The notes under the pieces: model-generated
What the model was told of the DNA's origin: nothing
Databases searched by the model: none
Seen by the model: only the letters and a program-made list of their open reading frames with translations
Part shown: one piece after another, positions 631-19,098 of the stretch
Layout of the letters: each line of letters begins with the position of its first letter
Numbering within the stretch: position 1 is the stretch's first letter
NCBI RefSeq assembly: GCF_017873555.1
Contig: NZ_JAGGKE010000017.1
Location: 1 to 45,771, forward strand
Direction: 5' to 3'
From: Halorubrum trapanicum
GTDB lineage: Archaea > Halobacteriota > Halobacteria > Halobacteriales > Haloferacaceae
Length of the DNA: 45,771 nucleotides
Translations under genes and position numbers: made by a program

Positions 631-964
631 ATAATTTCGCAATTTGGCGCTAAATGCTTACCAAACAATTAGTATCGGCTTGGTCGGGCGAGTCCCTACA
701 GTGCGTCTCCAACTCATACTCACGGGATCTATACTGACACCACGAATTTCTGCGAGGAATCGAAGGGTCTTCTGCCTATTCGTGTTGGCGCCCGAAATAT
801 CCGACTGCTGGTGGTTTTGTGACGGGTATATGTAGCACTATGGAACCTTCTGAGATAGCACTCCGAGACAATTTCTGTTGCTCCAAGAAGTACAAAATTT
901 GCTGCTGATTCAGTATAGCGATATACAGTATATTCCCTGTAGGCATATTCACAAAGGATCTGGT
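631..964. other. Non-coding stretch upstream of the recombinase
   Basis: I find no convincing gene here; the open frames lack coding character. The DNA is AT-richer than its surroundings, for example near 915-935 where TATA-rich sequence repeats. It may carry promoter or old insertion remnants. Confidence 0.4.
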
Positions 965-1001
965 GTGGGTTTAGCAGACTGAATTGGTCTGCCCAACCCA
1001 C
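965..1001. other. Lox-like dyad: candidate recombination site
   Basis: Two 15-bp arms, GTGGGTTTAGCAGAC at 965-979 and GTCTGCCCAACCCAC at 987-1001, are inverted repeats matching at 13 of 15 positions. They flank a 7-bp AT-rich centre, TGAATTG. Arm length and spacer are like the core sites of tyrosine recombinases, and the next gene downstream is one. An operator for that gene is the main alternative. Confidence 0.45.
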
Positions 1002-1144
1002 AAACTGATAAGGAATCCGATTGAAACGCTGAACGACTCGGATATGCCACTCTTAGAATCGCCATACTGGGCCGCGACCAGGTTTCTAACCGAATTCTGC
1101 ACCAATCCAATTTCGGACGGTCAAGTCCCCCAGAGATCGGTACA

Positions 1145-2452
1145 ATGAGTCGGTCGGATGCCGAGCAGGAGGGCAAAACCGACGCTGAGCGGGTGCCATC
1201 ATTCGATGGTGTCCGATGGACCTCGTGCTCGCTCGAGGACTTCACGGACCTGTACTGGGACGAGATTGCCCCTTGCCTCGAAGCAGAGGGTATCGATCCG
1301 AGAGGCGAGAAGCCTACCCACCAGTGGTTTCGGGATCACGATGCGCGGTCATTCCTCGCGGCTCTCCGCCGCCATCACGATCGCTCATTCGGGGAGTTCT
1401 GGAACGAGGACCTCGAGCTCGGTGATGATGAAGAGGGCTACACATGGGCAACGACGGATGATGCAACAATGGACGCCCTTGAACAGTTCCTCAACCGGCG
1501 GGAATCACGATACAGCCTTGCGACGTCGTCCGTCGACGCGCTGCGAACGCGACTGAATCTCTACGTCCGTGCTTATCGAGAGGCAAACGGGACAGATGAC
1601 CTCCTTACACCGATTCAACGAGATCAAGAGAATCCAGACTACGAAGCCGTTGACGCGTGCTATGCAGCATTCGACTGGTTGAATGAGGGAGCAGAACGGG
1701 AATACAGTGCCCAGACTCTCCAGCGTGTGCGGCGCGTCGTCGACGCCTGGTATCAGCATCTAGTCGGTCGACGGGTTGCCTCGATGAACCCTGCGAGCGG
1801 CCTCTATGACGAATTCAAGTGGGAAGTCGAAGATTCACCCACACCTTCGCTTTCAGCGAATCAGATTCGGAAACTGATGCAGGCGTCGGAGACAACGCGA
1901 GAACAGCTGCTCGTGGTGGCGTTAGCTGGCTGGGGACTTCGTGCAAGTGAGGTCGCCGCACTCCATGTATCGCAGTTCCACCGTGACGTTCCCGAAGACG
2001 ACATCCCCTTCATTACGTTCGAGAGTCGCAAGAACGGGCCCGGTGAGGTGTCTCTCCTGTACGGAATGGACGTTCTCGACTCCCGAATCGACGAGCTAGC
2101 GGAAGACGATACGTGGACTGGATACCTGTTCCCCTCCTCTCAGGGAGAAACGCCGTACGTGACCCGAGATACAATCCGGAATTGGTTCCAAAATCTTGCA
2201 TTGGAAGCAGATCTCCCCGAGCGGATCGAGGGTGAACGACCGAGTCCACAGCTCTGTCGTCGATTCTGGTACGACACCTATACAGCAGTCCTCGAAGGCG
2301 TTCTCGAAGGTGTTGACGAAATCGCTGCAGAGCAAGGTAGTAGCGATCCTCGGGTAGTGATGCAAAATTACCTGTCTGACTCGCGTGCTCGCCGAGTCCG
2401 ACGAGAATTCATGCGAGACCAACTTAACGCAGCCTTCGGAGAGAGAACGTAA
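1145..2452 (+). CDS. Tyrosine recombinase / integrase-like protein
   Basis: This 435-aa protein has the layout of a tyrosine recombinase: an N-terminal SAM-like DNA-binding part (about 105-215) and a C-terminal catalytic domain (about 235-425). Visible catalytic residues are Arg266 in GLRASEVAAL, a probable Lys296, Arg372 in QLCRRFWYD and Tyr409 in VVMQNYLSD. The His of the usual HxxR motif appears to be Gln369, a departure from canonical Xer proteins. The first 100 residues are an extra acidic domain. It probably cuts and rejoins DNA for plasmid dimer resolution or integration. ATG at 1145 is the first in-frame start with coding character. It sits between the lox-like dyad at 965-1001 and the partition repeats. 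Confidence 0.8.
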   Translation: MSRSDAEQEGKTDAERVPSFDGVRWTSCSLEDFTDLYWDEIAPCLEAEGIDPRGEKPTHQWFRDHDARSFLAALRRHHDRSFGEFWNEDLELGDDEEGYTWATTDDATMDALEQFLNRRESRYSLATSSVDALRTRLNLYVRAYREANGTDDLLTPIQRDQENPDYEAVDACYAAFDWLNEGAEREYSAQTLQRVRRVVDAWYQHLVGRRVASMNPASGLYDEFKWEVEDSPTPSLSANQIRKLMQASETTREQLLVVALAGWGLRASEVAALHVSQFHRDVPEDDIPFITFESRKNGPGEVSLLYGMDVLDSRIDELAEDDTWTGYLFPSSQGETPYVTRDTIRNWFQNLALEADLPERIEGERPSPQLCRRFWYDTYTAVLEGVLEGVDEIAAEQGSSDPRVVMQNYLSDSRARRVRREFMRDQLNAAFGERT

Positions 2453-2502
2453 CATCAACCCATCTGTCGAGCTATTCCAAATGTCTGTCCTCGGTTGATG
2501 AC

Positions 2503-2764
2503 TGAATCAATGAGTCACAGAGTCAATGAAGTATTGACTTCTGGAAGTTAAGAATCAAAGAGTCCATGATCTATAGCGTCATTTGCCACGATGGAGAGAA
2601 TGAATTCACCGACTCAGAGATTCATTGAGTCACTGAATCAGTGAGTGCCTGAAGCATTGAGTTGAGGATTCAGGAACACCAGACCCGTATCACGAAATCA
2701 CTGAATCAATGAATCAGTGAAATCCTGACGTTGTGAATCATTGATTCTGTGAGTCAATGATTCA
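2503..2764. repeat. 8-bp-phased direct repeats: candidate plasmid centromere
   Basis: About 25 units approximating nTGAnTCA run head to tail with an exact 8-bp step in three blocks: from 2503 to about 2570, 2601-2672 and 2693-2764. Clear units include TGAATCAA, TGAGTCAC, CTGAATCA and ATGATTCA. The half-symmetric heptamer and strict phasing resemble arrays bound by ribbon-helix-helix partition proteins. The array fills the whole gap between the recombinase and parA. More units occur at 2871-2886 and 4261-4284. Confidence 0.75.
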
Positions 2765-2867
2765 AAGACAGTGTTCGGGAAAGAGGTAATCATAGCTCTT
2801 AGCCCCTCAAACGCCGATATACGACAGAATCGCATTGAGAGAGATACAACTGAGTGTCTGACATGGA

Positions 2868-2886
2868 TTTATGAGTCATTGATTCA
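2868..2886 (+). promoter_or_regulatory. parA promoter with partition-repeat operator
   Basis: A TATA-like TTTATG at 2868-2873 lies about 27 bases before the parA start. Two 8-bp repeat units (ATGAGTCA at 2871, TTGATTCA at 2879) fall between it and the expected transcription start. The transcript would be nearly leaderless. Binding here would repress the operon, so autoregulation by the repeat-binding partner is likely. Confidence 0.5.
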
Positions 2887-2897
2887 ATGATCGAACT

Positions 2898-3809
2898 ATG
2901 ACCGAGACACCTCGTGGATGGGGCGTCACACCATCGACTGGCATCCCCACGATCGCCTTCGGCAACCAGAAAGGCGGGACAGGAAAGACAACGGCGACGA
3001 TCAACAGTGCCGCGGCGCTGGCCACTCGCGACCACGATGTTCTTGCAATCGATATGGACCCACAGGCCGACATGACGAAAGGGCTTGGACTGGGTCCGGG
3101 CGACGACAACGATCCATCAAGCCCGAAGAACGAACTCCCCAACACACTAGTCACCGATGACGAGAACCTACTCGACGTACTCGTCGACAATCCGCGCACG
3201 CACGATACTAGTCTTTCAGAAATCGTGATCGAAGCCGATGAGTACGATCATCTGAACTTCGACTTGATTCCCAGTCACAAGGACATGGGCCTTGCTCGAG
3301 ATTGGATGGACGATGCGAATGCTCGTCTCTCGCTGAAACTCGCCCTCGAAGAGATGGTTGACGACGGATACAACTACGATTTTATCGTAGTCGATTGCCC
3401 TCCCGACCTCTCAGTCCTGACGGACGCGGCCTTCATCGCGGCTCAGAACGTCTTCCTGGCTGCACAGACCCAAGCAACATCACGGGATGCACTTGACGAT
3501 CTGTGGGACCAGCTGGAGTCCATCGAGGACAACCAGCAGATCGAGATCGCAATCGTTGGACTCCTGGCGAACATGTACCGGGACGACGGTCAGTCGCAAA
3601 AGTTCCTCAACTCCTTCGACGAGTCCTTCGCGTCGATGGCACCGATTTTCAAACTCCCAATGCGAGTAGCAATCCAGCGTGCGTGGGACAACGGACGAGA
3701 TATTTTCGGATGGGAAGACGCGAACGACCAGCAAGTAGAGCGCGACCTCTTCCTGGAGGTTGCGGAGACGATGGAACGAGCGTTTGACAAAACGCAGGTG
3801 GAGGCGTAA
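2898..3809 (+). CDS. parA: ParA/Soj-family partition ATPase
   Basis: This 303-aa protein has the deviant Walker A motif KGGTGKTT (residues 25-32), the switch motif DMDPQAD (52-58) and the VVDCPPDLS Walker B region, all typical of ParA. Such ATPases bind DNA non-specifically with ATP and move plasmid copies through a centromere-binding partner. Length is normal for a ParA without an N-terminal HTH; residues 1-16 are a short extension. ATG at 2898 directly follows two partition repeats. The next gene starts two bases after the stop, so both are surely one operon. The strict repeat array at 2503-2764 completes a standard three-part partition locus. Confidence 0.93.
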   Translation: MTETPRGWGVTPSTGIPTIAFGNQKGGTGKTTATINSAAALATRDHDVLAIDMDPQADMTKGLGLGPGDDNDPSSPKNELPNTLVTDDENLLDVLVDNPRTHDTSLSEIVIEADEYDHLNFDLIPSHKDMGLARDWMDDANARLSLKLALEEMVDDGYNYDFIVVDCPPDLSVLTDAAFIAAQNVFLAAQTQATSRDALDDLWDQLESIEDNQQIEIAIVGLLANMYRDDGQSQKFLNSFDESFASMAPIFKLPMRVAIQRAWDNGRDIFGWEDANDQQVERDLFLEVAETMERAFDKTQVEA

Positions 3810-3811
3810 GA

Positions 3812-4264
3812 ATGCCCCGGGGAATGGACGAGCGGTTCGAGGATCCCTCAGACGAGGTGGATGAGGAGGACGCGGTCGCAGACGAGGAGACCACAGAGAC
3901 GTCGGAGGAATCGGAAGAACAGGGTCGTGAAACTGCGGCAGCAACCGAGGATCGATCAGATCAGCAGAGAACCGCATCCACGACCGATACTGATTCGTCG
4001 ACCAGTGAGGCAGGAGAGACAGATGACGAACCGCTGAACATCCGCGAAGATTGGGATTCAGCCACGATATACGTTGAACCGGAGCAAAGCGAGGACATCG
4101 AGATCACGTTCACTCGCCTGAAAAAGCAGCTCAAACGCGAGGACATCACGCTGGAGAAAAACAAGCATTTCTACCGCGGTGTTTTCGAGGTAGCGTTCGG
4201 CGAGCACCAGGAGGAAACGAAGGAGAAAATTCGCGAATTCGCCAAGGAAGACGGCGATCAGTGA
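3812..4264 (+). CDS. Putative centromere-binding partition protein (RHH-like)
   Basis: This 150-aa protein starts two bases after parA. Residues 1-75 are a highly acidic, low-complexity tail rich in Glu, Asp, Ser and Thr. The C-terminal half reads as a short strand (SATIYVEP, about 87-94), a helix (about 97-114) and a second helix (about 120-135). This order fits a ribbon-helix-helix fold, though I cannot confirm it. By position it is expected to bind the 8-bp repeats and stimulate ParA. Its stop codon lies inside the repeat unit GTGAATCA at 4261, so repeats bracket the operon. An unrelated adaptor role is possible, as no sequence family is recognised. Confidence 0.6.
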   Translation: MPRGMDERFEDPSDEVDEEDAVADEETTETSEESEEQGRETAAATEDRSDQQRTASTTDTDSSTSEAGETDDEPLNIREDWDSATIYVEPEQSEDIEITFTRLKKQLKREDITLEKNKHFYRGVFEVAFGEHQEETKEKIREFAKEDGDQ

Positions 4265-4284
4265 ATCACTGATTCACAGAATCC
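4261..4284. repeat. Partition repeats at the operon's 3' end
   Basis: Units GTGAATCA (4261), CTGATTCA (4269) and the degenerate CAGAATCC (4277) follow the 8-bp phasing of the upstream array and overlap the stop codon of the preceding gene. Confidence 0.6.
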
Positions 4285-4485
4285 CGAATGTTAAGAGGAT
4301 GGCCCGGCATCGAACGAGGTTCTCAGAATCGACCCTCTCCTGTTCTTTTGAAAGCCAAAATGAATCGTCATTCACTATACTATCGAGTCGTGGGTGGGAA
4401 AGGTCAGACCGGCCCCCTATCTATAATCCGTCCTGAAAAGAGATCCTTAGCAAAGTCTGTGTAGTCGCAAGTTGCAGTAGTCAGT

Positions 4486-18438: not shown

Positions 18439-19098
18439 TCAGTTTGGACGGTAGTTCGCGTCAGTGTCGACGCTGTCGTACATGCGGCCGAGCATGTCGA
18501 GCGCTGACTGGAAGTGTGCGTAGTGCTCGTTTGCGAACGCTATGGTTTCTTGGAGGGAAATAACGGGCCGTCCGTCGACCATCTCGGCCTCGATCTGTGC
18601 CTCCGGCTCGAGGACCACCTGTATCGCACCATCGAGGTCAGCAGCGGGCAGGCGTTCTTCCGCAGTCGGGATTTCGAACCGATCGAAGAACGCCGTCCAG
18701 GCGTCGAAGTCGGACTCGTGGACGGCGATGAACAGCGGATAGTCCTCTGGGTCGCGAGCGACCTGGTAGCCACCGCGGGTCCAGACGTAGACTGCATCGA
18801 TGCCCGTGTATGCGTACTCCATCCCCGCGAACTGCGGGAGGACGTACGCCTCTGAGATCGACGGTGGCGAGATGTCTGCTACCACCGTCAGAAATTCGAG
18901 ACCGACGTCTCGGAGCGTCTGATCGACAAGCTGGAGGCCATCATCGTACGCGACGTATCCCGCCTCTTCGAGGCGATTCACGACGCGCCGAATCGTCTCC
19001 CGGTTCTCGTCGATCTTCCGCGCGACGCCGGAGATGGAATCGCCCGGGTCAAGCGCAAGGATGACCTTGAGTTCCTTCTCACCGCACACTTCGTACAT
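18439..19098 (-). CDS. Winged-helix transcriptional regulator
   Basis: The 219-aa product opens with a winged helix (about 1-60: GDSISGVARKIDENRETIRR, VVNRLEEAGYV). The C-terminal part has strands and a WTRGGYQVARDPEDYPLFIA segment, like haloarchaeal proteins that couple an HTH to a sensing or AbiEi-like domain. I cannot assign a ligand. ATG 19098 is preferred over TTG 19113 because the palindrome at 19106-19123 lies directly upstream and would otherwise be coding. This operator position suggests that it represses its own gene. It is next to the two small genes at 19139-19841 on the same strand but has its own promoter. Confidence 0.7.
   Translation of the reverse strand: MYEVCGEKELKVILALDPGDSISGVARKIDENRETIRRVVNRLEEAGYVAYDDGLQLVDQTLRDVGLEFLTVVADISPPSISEAYVLPQFAGMEYAYTGIDAVYVWTRGGYQVARDPEDYPLFIAVHESDFDAWTAFFDRFEIPTAEERLPAADLDGAIQVVLEPEAQIEAEMVDGRPVISLQETIAFANEHYAHFQSALDMLGRMYDSVDTDANYRPN

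Follow-up and report, generated by a model that had tools for sequence, protein, structure and literature searches.

A conserved inverted repeat as the probable core recombination site of a tyrosine recombinase carried on haloarchaeal plasmids

A dyad beside a divergent tyrosine recombinase

An inverted repeat upstream of a recombinase gene raises the question of whether that enzyme exchanges strands at the repeat and, if it does, which DNA molecules are joined or separated there. The repeat considered here lies in what we call the window, the whole stretch of DNA that was analyzed, which is one complete contig of 45,771 bp from a 3.08-Mb haloarchaeal draft genome. It occupies 37 bases (positions 965 to 1001, forward strand) and ends 143 bp before the start codon of the recombinase. 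Two arms that are kept across orthologs, a left half-site (GTGGGTTTAGCAGAC, 965 to 979) and a right half-site (GTCTGCCCAACCCAC, 987 to 1001), flank a 7-bp center, TGAATTG (980 to 986), which varies among plasmids and is the putative overlap region for strand exchange. The 15-bp arms are complementary at 13 positions, or at 14 of 16 when an extra T/A pair at 964/1002 is counted. These coordinates and this geometry are as an earlier note on the locus had given them. Its description of the center as AT rich holds for this copy (5 of 7 bases) and not for the family, where TCTCCCG, TCTGCCA, and TGCAGAG are also found. The term "lox-like" was apt in pointing to the core of a tyrosine recombinase site, while the layout of half-site, 7 bp, and half-site around an odd center departs from that of loxP, which is 13-8-13 with an even center.

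The gene beside the dyad (1145 to 2452, forward strand) encodes a protein of 435 amino acids that was assigned to the tyrosine recombinases on its catalytic residues and predicted fold. R266, K296, R372, and Y409 are invariant in all 70 diverse homologs compared. The histidine of the HxxR motif (position 369) is Q in 35 of these, K in 28, and H in 7 and is thus replaced in 63 of the 70, which is unusual for a tyrosine recombinase; position 400, the second active-site H/W position, is mostly S or A and also D. Because both positions are replaced, recombinase activity is not guaranteed. An AlphaFold model (mean pLDDT, 84) was matched by Foldseek to recombinases (lambda Int, Cre, XerA, and XerH), and the best matches in the PDB include lambda Int bound to core. 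The protein scores 19.4 bits against PF00589, under the gathering threshold of 27.1, and 35.6 bits against the XerA profile, for which the cutoff is 220. By these comparisons, the enzyme is a divergent tyrosine recombinase and not XerA. It is the only recombinase detected on the contig, as had been claimed; the genome has further PF00589 genes on other contigs.

The earlier note had staked its reading on the presence of the dyad beside orthologous recombinases, and the claim survived this check. Among 37 nonredundant loci whose recombinases are 74 to 100% identical, 36 carry GTGGGTTNNGCNGAC-N7-GTCNGCNNAACCCAC, mostly starting at −180, and the left half-site GTGGGTTNNGCAGAC is likewise found in 36, with few single-base deviations; the one locus lacking the dyad (L049) sits on a 3.8-kb contig, where the match is fragmentary. 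In both half-sites of the 36 sites, 11 arm positions hardly vary. The center bases are variable, with 18 sequences among the 36 sites, T coming first in 35 and a purine last in all 36. Centers differ in the same-clade pairs of coresident plasmids that were inspected, but identity would arise by chance in only about 9%, so the difference is not informative.

On a plasmid of Natrinema sp. DC36 (L075/L218), the center plus right arm, CAATTCA GTCTGCTAAACCCAC, reads as the usual left arm and center in exact reverse complement, which an intrastrand template switch or an antiparallel exchange could have produced. Two sites were considered for this plasmid; the second is apparent only, and there is one near-palindromic site. 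It shows what would be a striking case of center drift.

Crossovers at the site and the candidate roles

Two coresident plasmids of Haloarcula marina, NZ_CP100409 (187 kb) and NZ_CP100410 (94 kb), were compared. Left of the site, the nearest 4.6 kb show no differences, and the match is virtually perfect over about 9 kb. Identity continues through the left arm into the center as far as its third base (TGTTACG versus TGTATTG), beyond which it drops to 74 to 79% per 500 bp. Two pairs drawn from genomes G071 and G030, which we take to be Deep Lake haloarchaea, give the mirror image: they are essentially identical rightward from inside the left arm or the center for about 6 kb or more, while the sequence directly left of the arm is unrelated apart from a conserved box described below. 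In one of these pairs, the breakpoint lies right of arm position 9. A replicon of 431,338 bp in G030 is presumably the match to pHLAC01 of Halorubrum lacusprofundi. Among pairs within clade A, 42 share at least 93% identity in the right flank, and in 25 of these the left flanks are less than 70% identical; these pairs are not independent, and several distinct left-flank types are represented, one of which is the flank beside the window's own site. Comparison of these replicons places the crossovers between recombinase-carrying replicons at the dyad, and homologous recombination would have to have stopped repeatedly within one 37-bp element to produce them. Published rearrangements in H. lacusprofundi were attributed to copies of ISH3 and not to the dyad site (PMC10544981).

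Close relatives of the recombinase occur across haloarchaeal genera, and the recombinase was found on 130 haloarchaeal plasmids in PLSDB. A viral origin was considered and rejected: none of 50,697 phage records and none of the IMG/VR viral contigs holds a homolog, and neither set holds an exact copy of the site. With up to three mismatches allowed, the site pattern is present in 15 of 196 related genomes, in one or two copies each (a reversed control pattern gave 0 matches), and 16 more genomes with the recombinase have a single copy each. Each replicon searched has a single site, with the recombinase and a ParA locus next to it. That the dyad stands alone, as had been stated, was confirmed by a search for a second copy, which returned a single site in the whole genome; no second site within three mismatches was found in this genome or its relatives save at paralogous recombinase loci. 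An integrase acting on a chromosomal attB was likewise rejected, with no second compatible site in the same genome or the relatives searched. Sites adjoin a recombinase homolog, the exception being an orphan composite site in genome G078. At this locus (L056, 1501 to 1590), core and box are present, their own recombinase is gone, and they abut the end of a recombinase that belongs to another clade and is frameshifted.

The segment that the window shares with unrelated plasmids begins at 913 or 965 and reaches about 4300, with homology lost beyond either edge. The cassette so defined (913 to 4313) comprises the box, the dyad, the recombinase, an array of the 8-bp repeat TGANTCAN (2501 to 2890), a ParA-family partition ATPase (2898 to 3809, forward strand; AAA_31, 3e-35), and a small acidic protein of 150 amino acids (3812 to 4264, forward strand), which is a putative centromere-binding partner of ParA. 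The spacing of the ParA gene is the same in other plasmids, the order of the genes is conserved, and ParA lies nearby in several annotated plasmids; profile searches with the partner protein gave no family match. Repeats of the TGANTCAN type flank parA and the partner gene on both sides and are likely an archaeal plasmid centromere, with the array serving as the putative centromere of this ParA system. A distal pair of TGANTCA repeats (4262 to 4279) marks the right edge of the cassette, and homology ends just after it.

The reading of the dyad as a core site is supported by half-sites that covary with recombinase clade (see below), by the single site per replicon, by linkage to a partition locus, and by crossovers inside the site. 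With the dyad retained beside nearly all orthologs and sharp natural crossovers within it, we conclude from sequence comparison that it is almost certainly the core site at which the neighboring tyrosine recombinase acts, as first proposed. The adjacent enzyme would perform the crossover by the usual tyrosine mechanism: two protomers would bind the two arms, a pair of sites would synapse, and strands would be exchanged across the 7-bp center. The normal substrate would be two copies of the site within a plasmid multimer, a proposal drawn from the one site per replicon, the neighboring partition locus, the lack of a second chromosomal site, and the centers, which can drift freely since each partner in the reaction is a copy of the other. 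Since both sites of a dimer share the same center, the reaction would yield monomers from multimers, and this resolution would precede ParA-driven partition of the low-copy plasmid. Overall, the module most likely separates fused plasmid copies, which is the best supported of the roles that we infer, and we consider it probable that the dyad is a recombinase core site converting multimers of low-copy plasmids to monomers before partition.

The main rival to multimer resolution is plasmid fusion or exchange. Here the adjacent recombinase would still use the dyad as its core site, but the dyad would act chiefly between replicons, in plasmid integration or exchange, cointegration, or cassette shuffling. 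Every crossover seen is between replicons, which a resolution system should suppress and which counts against pure resolution, although dimer resolution itself leaves no sequence scar. The cassette of site, recombinase, and par genes is also found in unrelated plasmid backbones, and recombinase homologs occur in chromosomal contigs as well, for example, in G071. We nevertheless regard a chiefly inter-replicon role as unlikely, as no genome searched holds a second compatible site or attB, no flanking pairs of sites were found around integrated copies, and the difference in centers between close relatives and between coresident plasmids suits a system whose site partners with itself. Under multimer resolution, the module would still swap DNA between plasmids in nature: plasmids with matching centers would occasionally recombine with one another, which would account for the mosaic flanks.

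The upstream box and the distant homologs

A conserved box, GTATAGCGATATACAGTATATTC (913 to 935, forward strand; family consensus, RTATMGCRNYATANRRTTTAT), was missed by the earlier note. The TATAGCG within it starts exactly 66 bp ahead of the core center, and the same distance was found in 68 of about 80 loci in which a box was scored near a called dyad; the distance from dyad center to start codon varies from about 25 to 165 bp across homologs. The box thus keeps its place relative to the dyad, not to the start codon. On four plasmids the left edge of homology lies about 12 bp outside the box, which supports box and dyad as one unit. The box is unclear in about 29 of 137 loci.

Elsewhere in the same genome (G000), the pattern TATAGCG..ATA..TTTAT occurs about 12 times, at contig positions C1:225394, C1:231172, C4:208855, C4:209913, C6:51566, C18:36867, and others. 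One copy lies 76 bp before the ATG of a Rio1-like kinase gene, one lies 246 bp before another integrase-like gene, and one lies upstream of a gene for an MBL-fold-like protein. The box may be a promoter or a host-regulator site, possibly a haloarchaeal motif of this kind that has gone unreported, and its constant distance to the core is compatible with an accessory site and with an operator-promoter pair alike. It would serve either as an accessory element that biases the reaction toward resolution or as the promoter of the recombinase, and if it is the promoter, the bound core would also autoregulate. Invertible segments were considered as well, since boxes face each other in pairs in this genome; no matching cores lie 66 bp away, and invertons were rejected. 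Copies of the box are also located upstream of ordinary genes.

Homologs down to about 35% identity have a dyad of different sequence with the same odd-centered geometry and covarying arms. Arm sequence tracks recombinase clade, the forms being GTGGGTYNNRCNGAC, GGTGTTCACACAGAC, GTTGACTGCGCAGAC, and arms ending in GTTGTC or GTGTC. Pairing was scored at 72 nonorthologous loci aligned on the box, an anchor chosen because it is independent of dyad calling. On average, 6.2 of 11 pairs formed at the same center against a background of 2.8 (standard deviation, 0.5), and the excess appeared only at odd spacings. Most arm positions pair above independence; position 2 does so in 56 of the 72 loci against 22.9 expected, as A-T 29 times and T-A 21 times. 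An odd center excludes symmetric overlaps of 6 or 8 bp and fits one of 7 bp, and a length of 7 bp is how the arm boundaries and the odd symmetry together are best read. Automatic calling gave no convincing dyad at some distant loci and does not work for some members of the most distant clade (35 to 42% identity), where the counts are conservative.

The box also lends some credence to the proposal that the dyad serves in regulation, as an operator or another promoter-proximal element through which the recombinase represses itself or another regulator acts, rather than a site of strand exchange: the dyad lies about 30 bp downstream of a promoter-like element with some dozen further copies in the genome. 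As the sole function this is very unlikely, for it leaves unexplained both the abrupt crossovers within the site in pairs of otherwise identical replicons and the hypervariable centers between conserved arms; an operator role could be additional to recombination. An RNA hairpin, either a terminator or a leader structure, would suit a strong intergenic inverted repeat upstream of a gene and is hardly credible here. The repeat has no T-run, and center parity and position relative to the box are the same in all clades. Arm positions 8 and 9 are unpaired in 28 and 33 of the 36 orthologous sites, respectively, while neighboring bases are fixed, and at position 12 the left half-site has A and the right one often T; with these positions free to mismatch, the arms look like protein half-sites and not like a paired stem, and the hairpin was rejected on this pattern of tolerated mismatches. 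Finally, although one further dyad of equal quality (13 of 15, spacer of 7) lies in the window at 18691, and Markov simulations yield about 0.1 such dyads per 45.8-kb window (1 in 8 windows), so that a single copy alone could be chance, a chance repeat has next to no probability given the conservation beside orthologs and the covariation in distant homologs.

Relation to known systems and contig context

As in Cre/loxP of P1, the subject of earlier work on plasmid maintenance (PMC2409434), a plasmid-encoded tyrosine recombinase and its own single site lie beside maintenance genes on a low-copy plasmid with ParA, and inverted half-sites flank an asymmetric center. Unlike in Cre/loxP, the center is odd (7 bp), the arms are about 15 bp rather than 13 bp around 8 bp, and a conserved box lies upstream. 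The archaeal Xer/dif site is chromosomal, with an 11-6-11 layout (PMC2958812, PMC8371274); a single site per replicon, presumed monomerization, and the enzyme fold are shared with Xer/dif (XerA, XerCD), whereas here the recombinase is plasmid borne, is no equivalent of XerA, XerC, or XerD, and adjoins its site, which has an odd center and lacks the 11-6-11 form. Lambda-type integrases and their att sites also have a 7-bp center between inverted core sites, but here no compatible second site was found in the host chromosome, and the system is absent from the phages and viral contigs searched. In contrast to suicidal integrases of the SSV/pTN3 type, whose site is within the integrase gene, the site lies upstream of the start codon.

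Sites of the cer/psi type resemble this one in combining a core with an upstream element at a fixed distance, an element also found at host genes (compare ArgR-type sites), and by analogy the box may act as an accessory element. They differ in that the recombinase here is encoded by the plasmid and not by the host, and the box may be a mere promoter. We hold as tentative the wider proposal, modeled on cer/psi, of a family-wide archaeal plasmid resolution system with a composite site in which a host protein bound at the box would enforce resolution; such a system would pair a recombinase mostly lacking both catalytic histidine positions with a host-type box 66 bp from the core. The system works like Cre/loxP or a cer-type site, falls under neither definition, and is best called a variant among plasmid-encoded tyrosine recombination systems.

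Haloarchaea have many large low-copy replicons, and in the literature searched, mostly papers open without subscription, neither multimer avoidance nor a site for multimer or dimer resolution of haloarchaeal plasmids is described. With an enzyme, a core site, and an upstream box identified on more than 100 plasmids, and with natural crossovers pointing to where exchange takes place, the resolution of archaeal plasmids can be tested in Haloferax or Halorubrum. The system would explain part of the mosaicism of haloarchaeal plasmids and may offer a salt-tolerant tool for site-specific recombination.

Positions 1 to 95 of the window are the end of an ISH3-family insertion sequence, which has many copies in haloarchaeal plasmids. 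As the contig starts inside this repeat, the break reflects a collapsed repeat and not a plasmid end, and the replicon is a putative plasmid. The following 538 bp (94 to 631) are 100% identical to a plasmid of Halolamina sp. CBA1230 (NZ_CP054589) and to the Halorubrum-group genome G039, and the segment looks like a recently moved nonautonomous element. At the right end of the contig (45718 to 45768) lies a perfect, long, GC-rich inverted repeat, GTCGCTGTCGGCGGC/GCCGCCGACAGCGAC.
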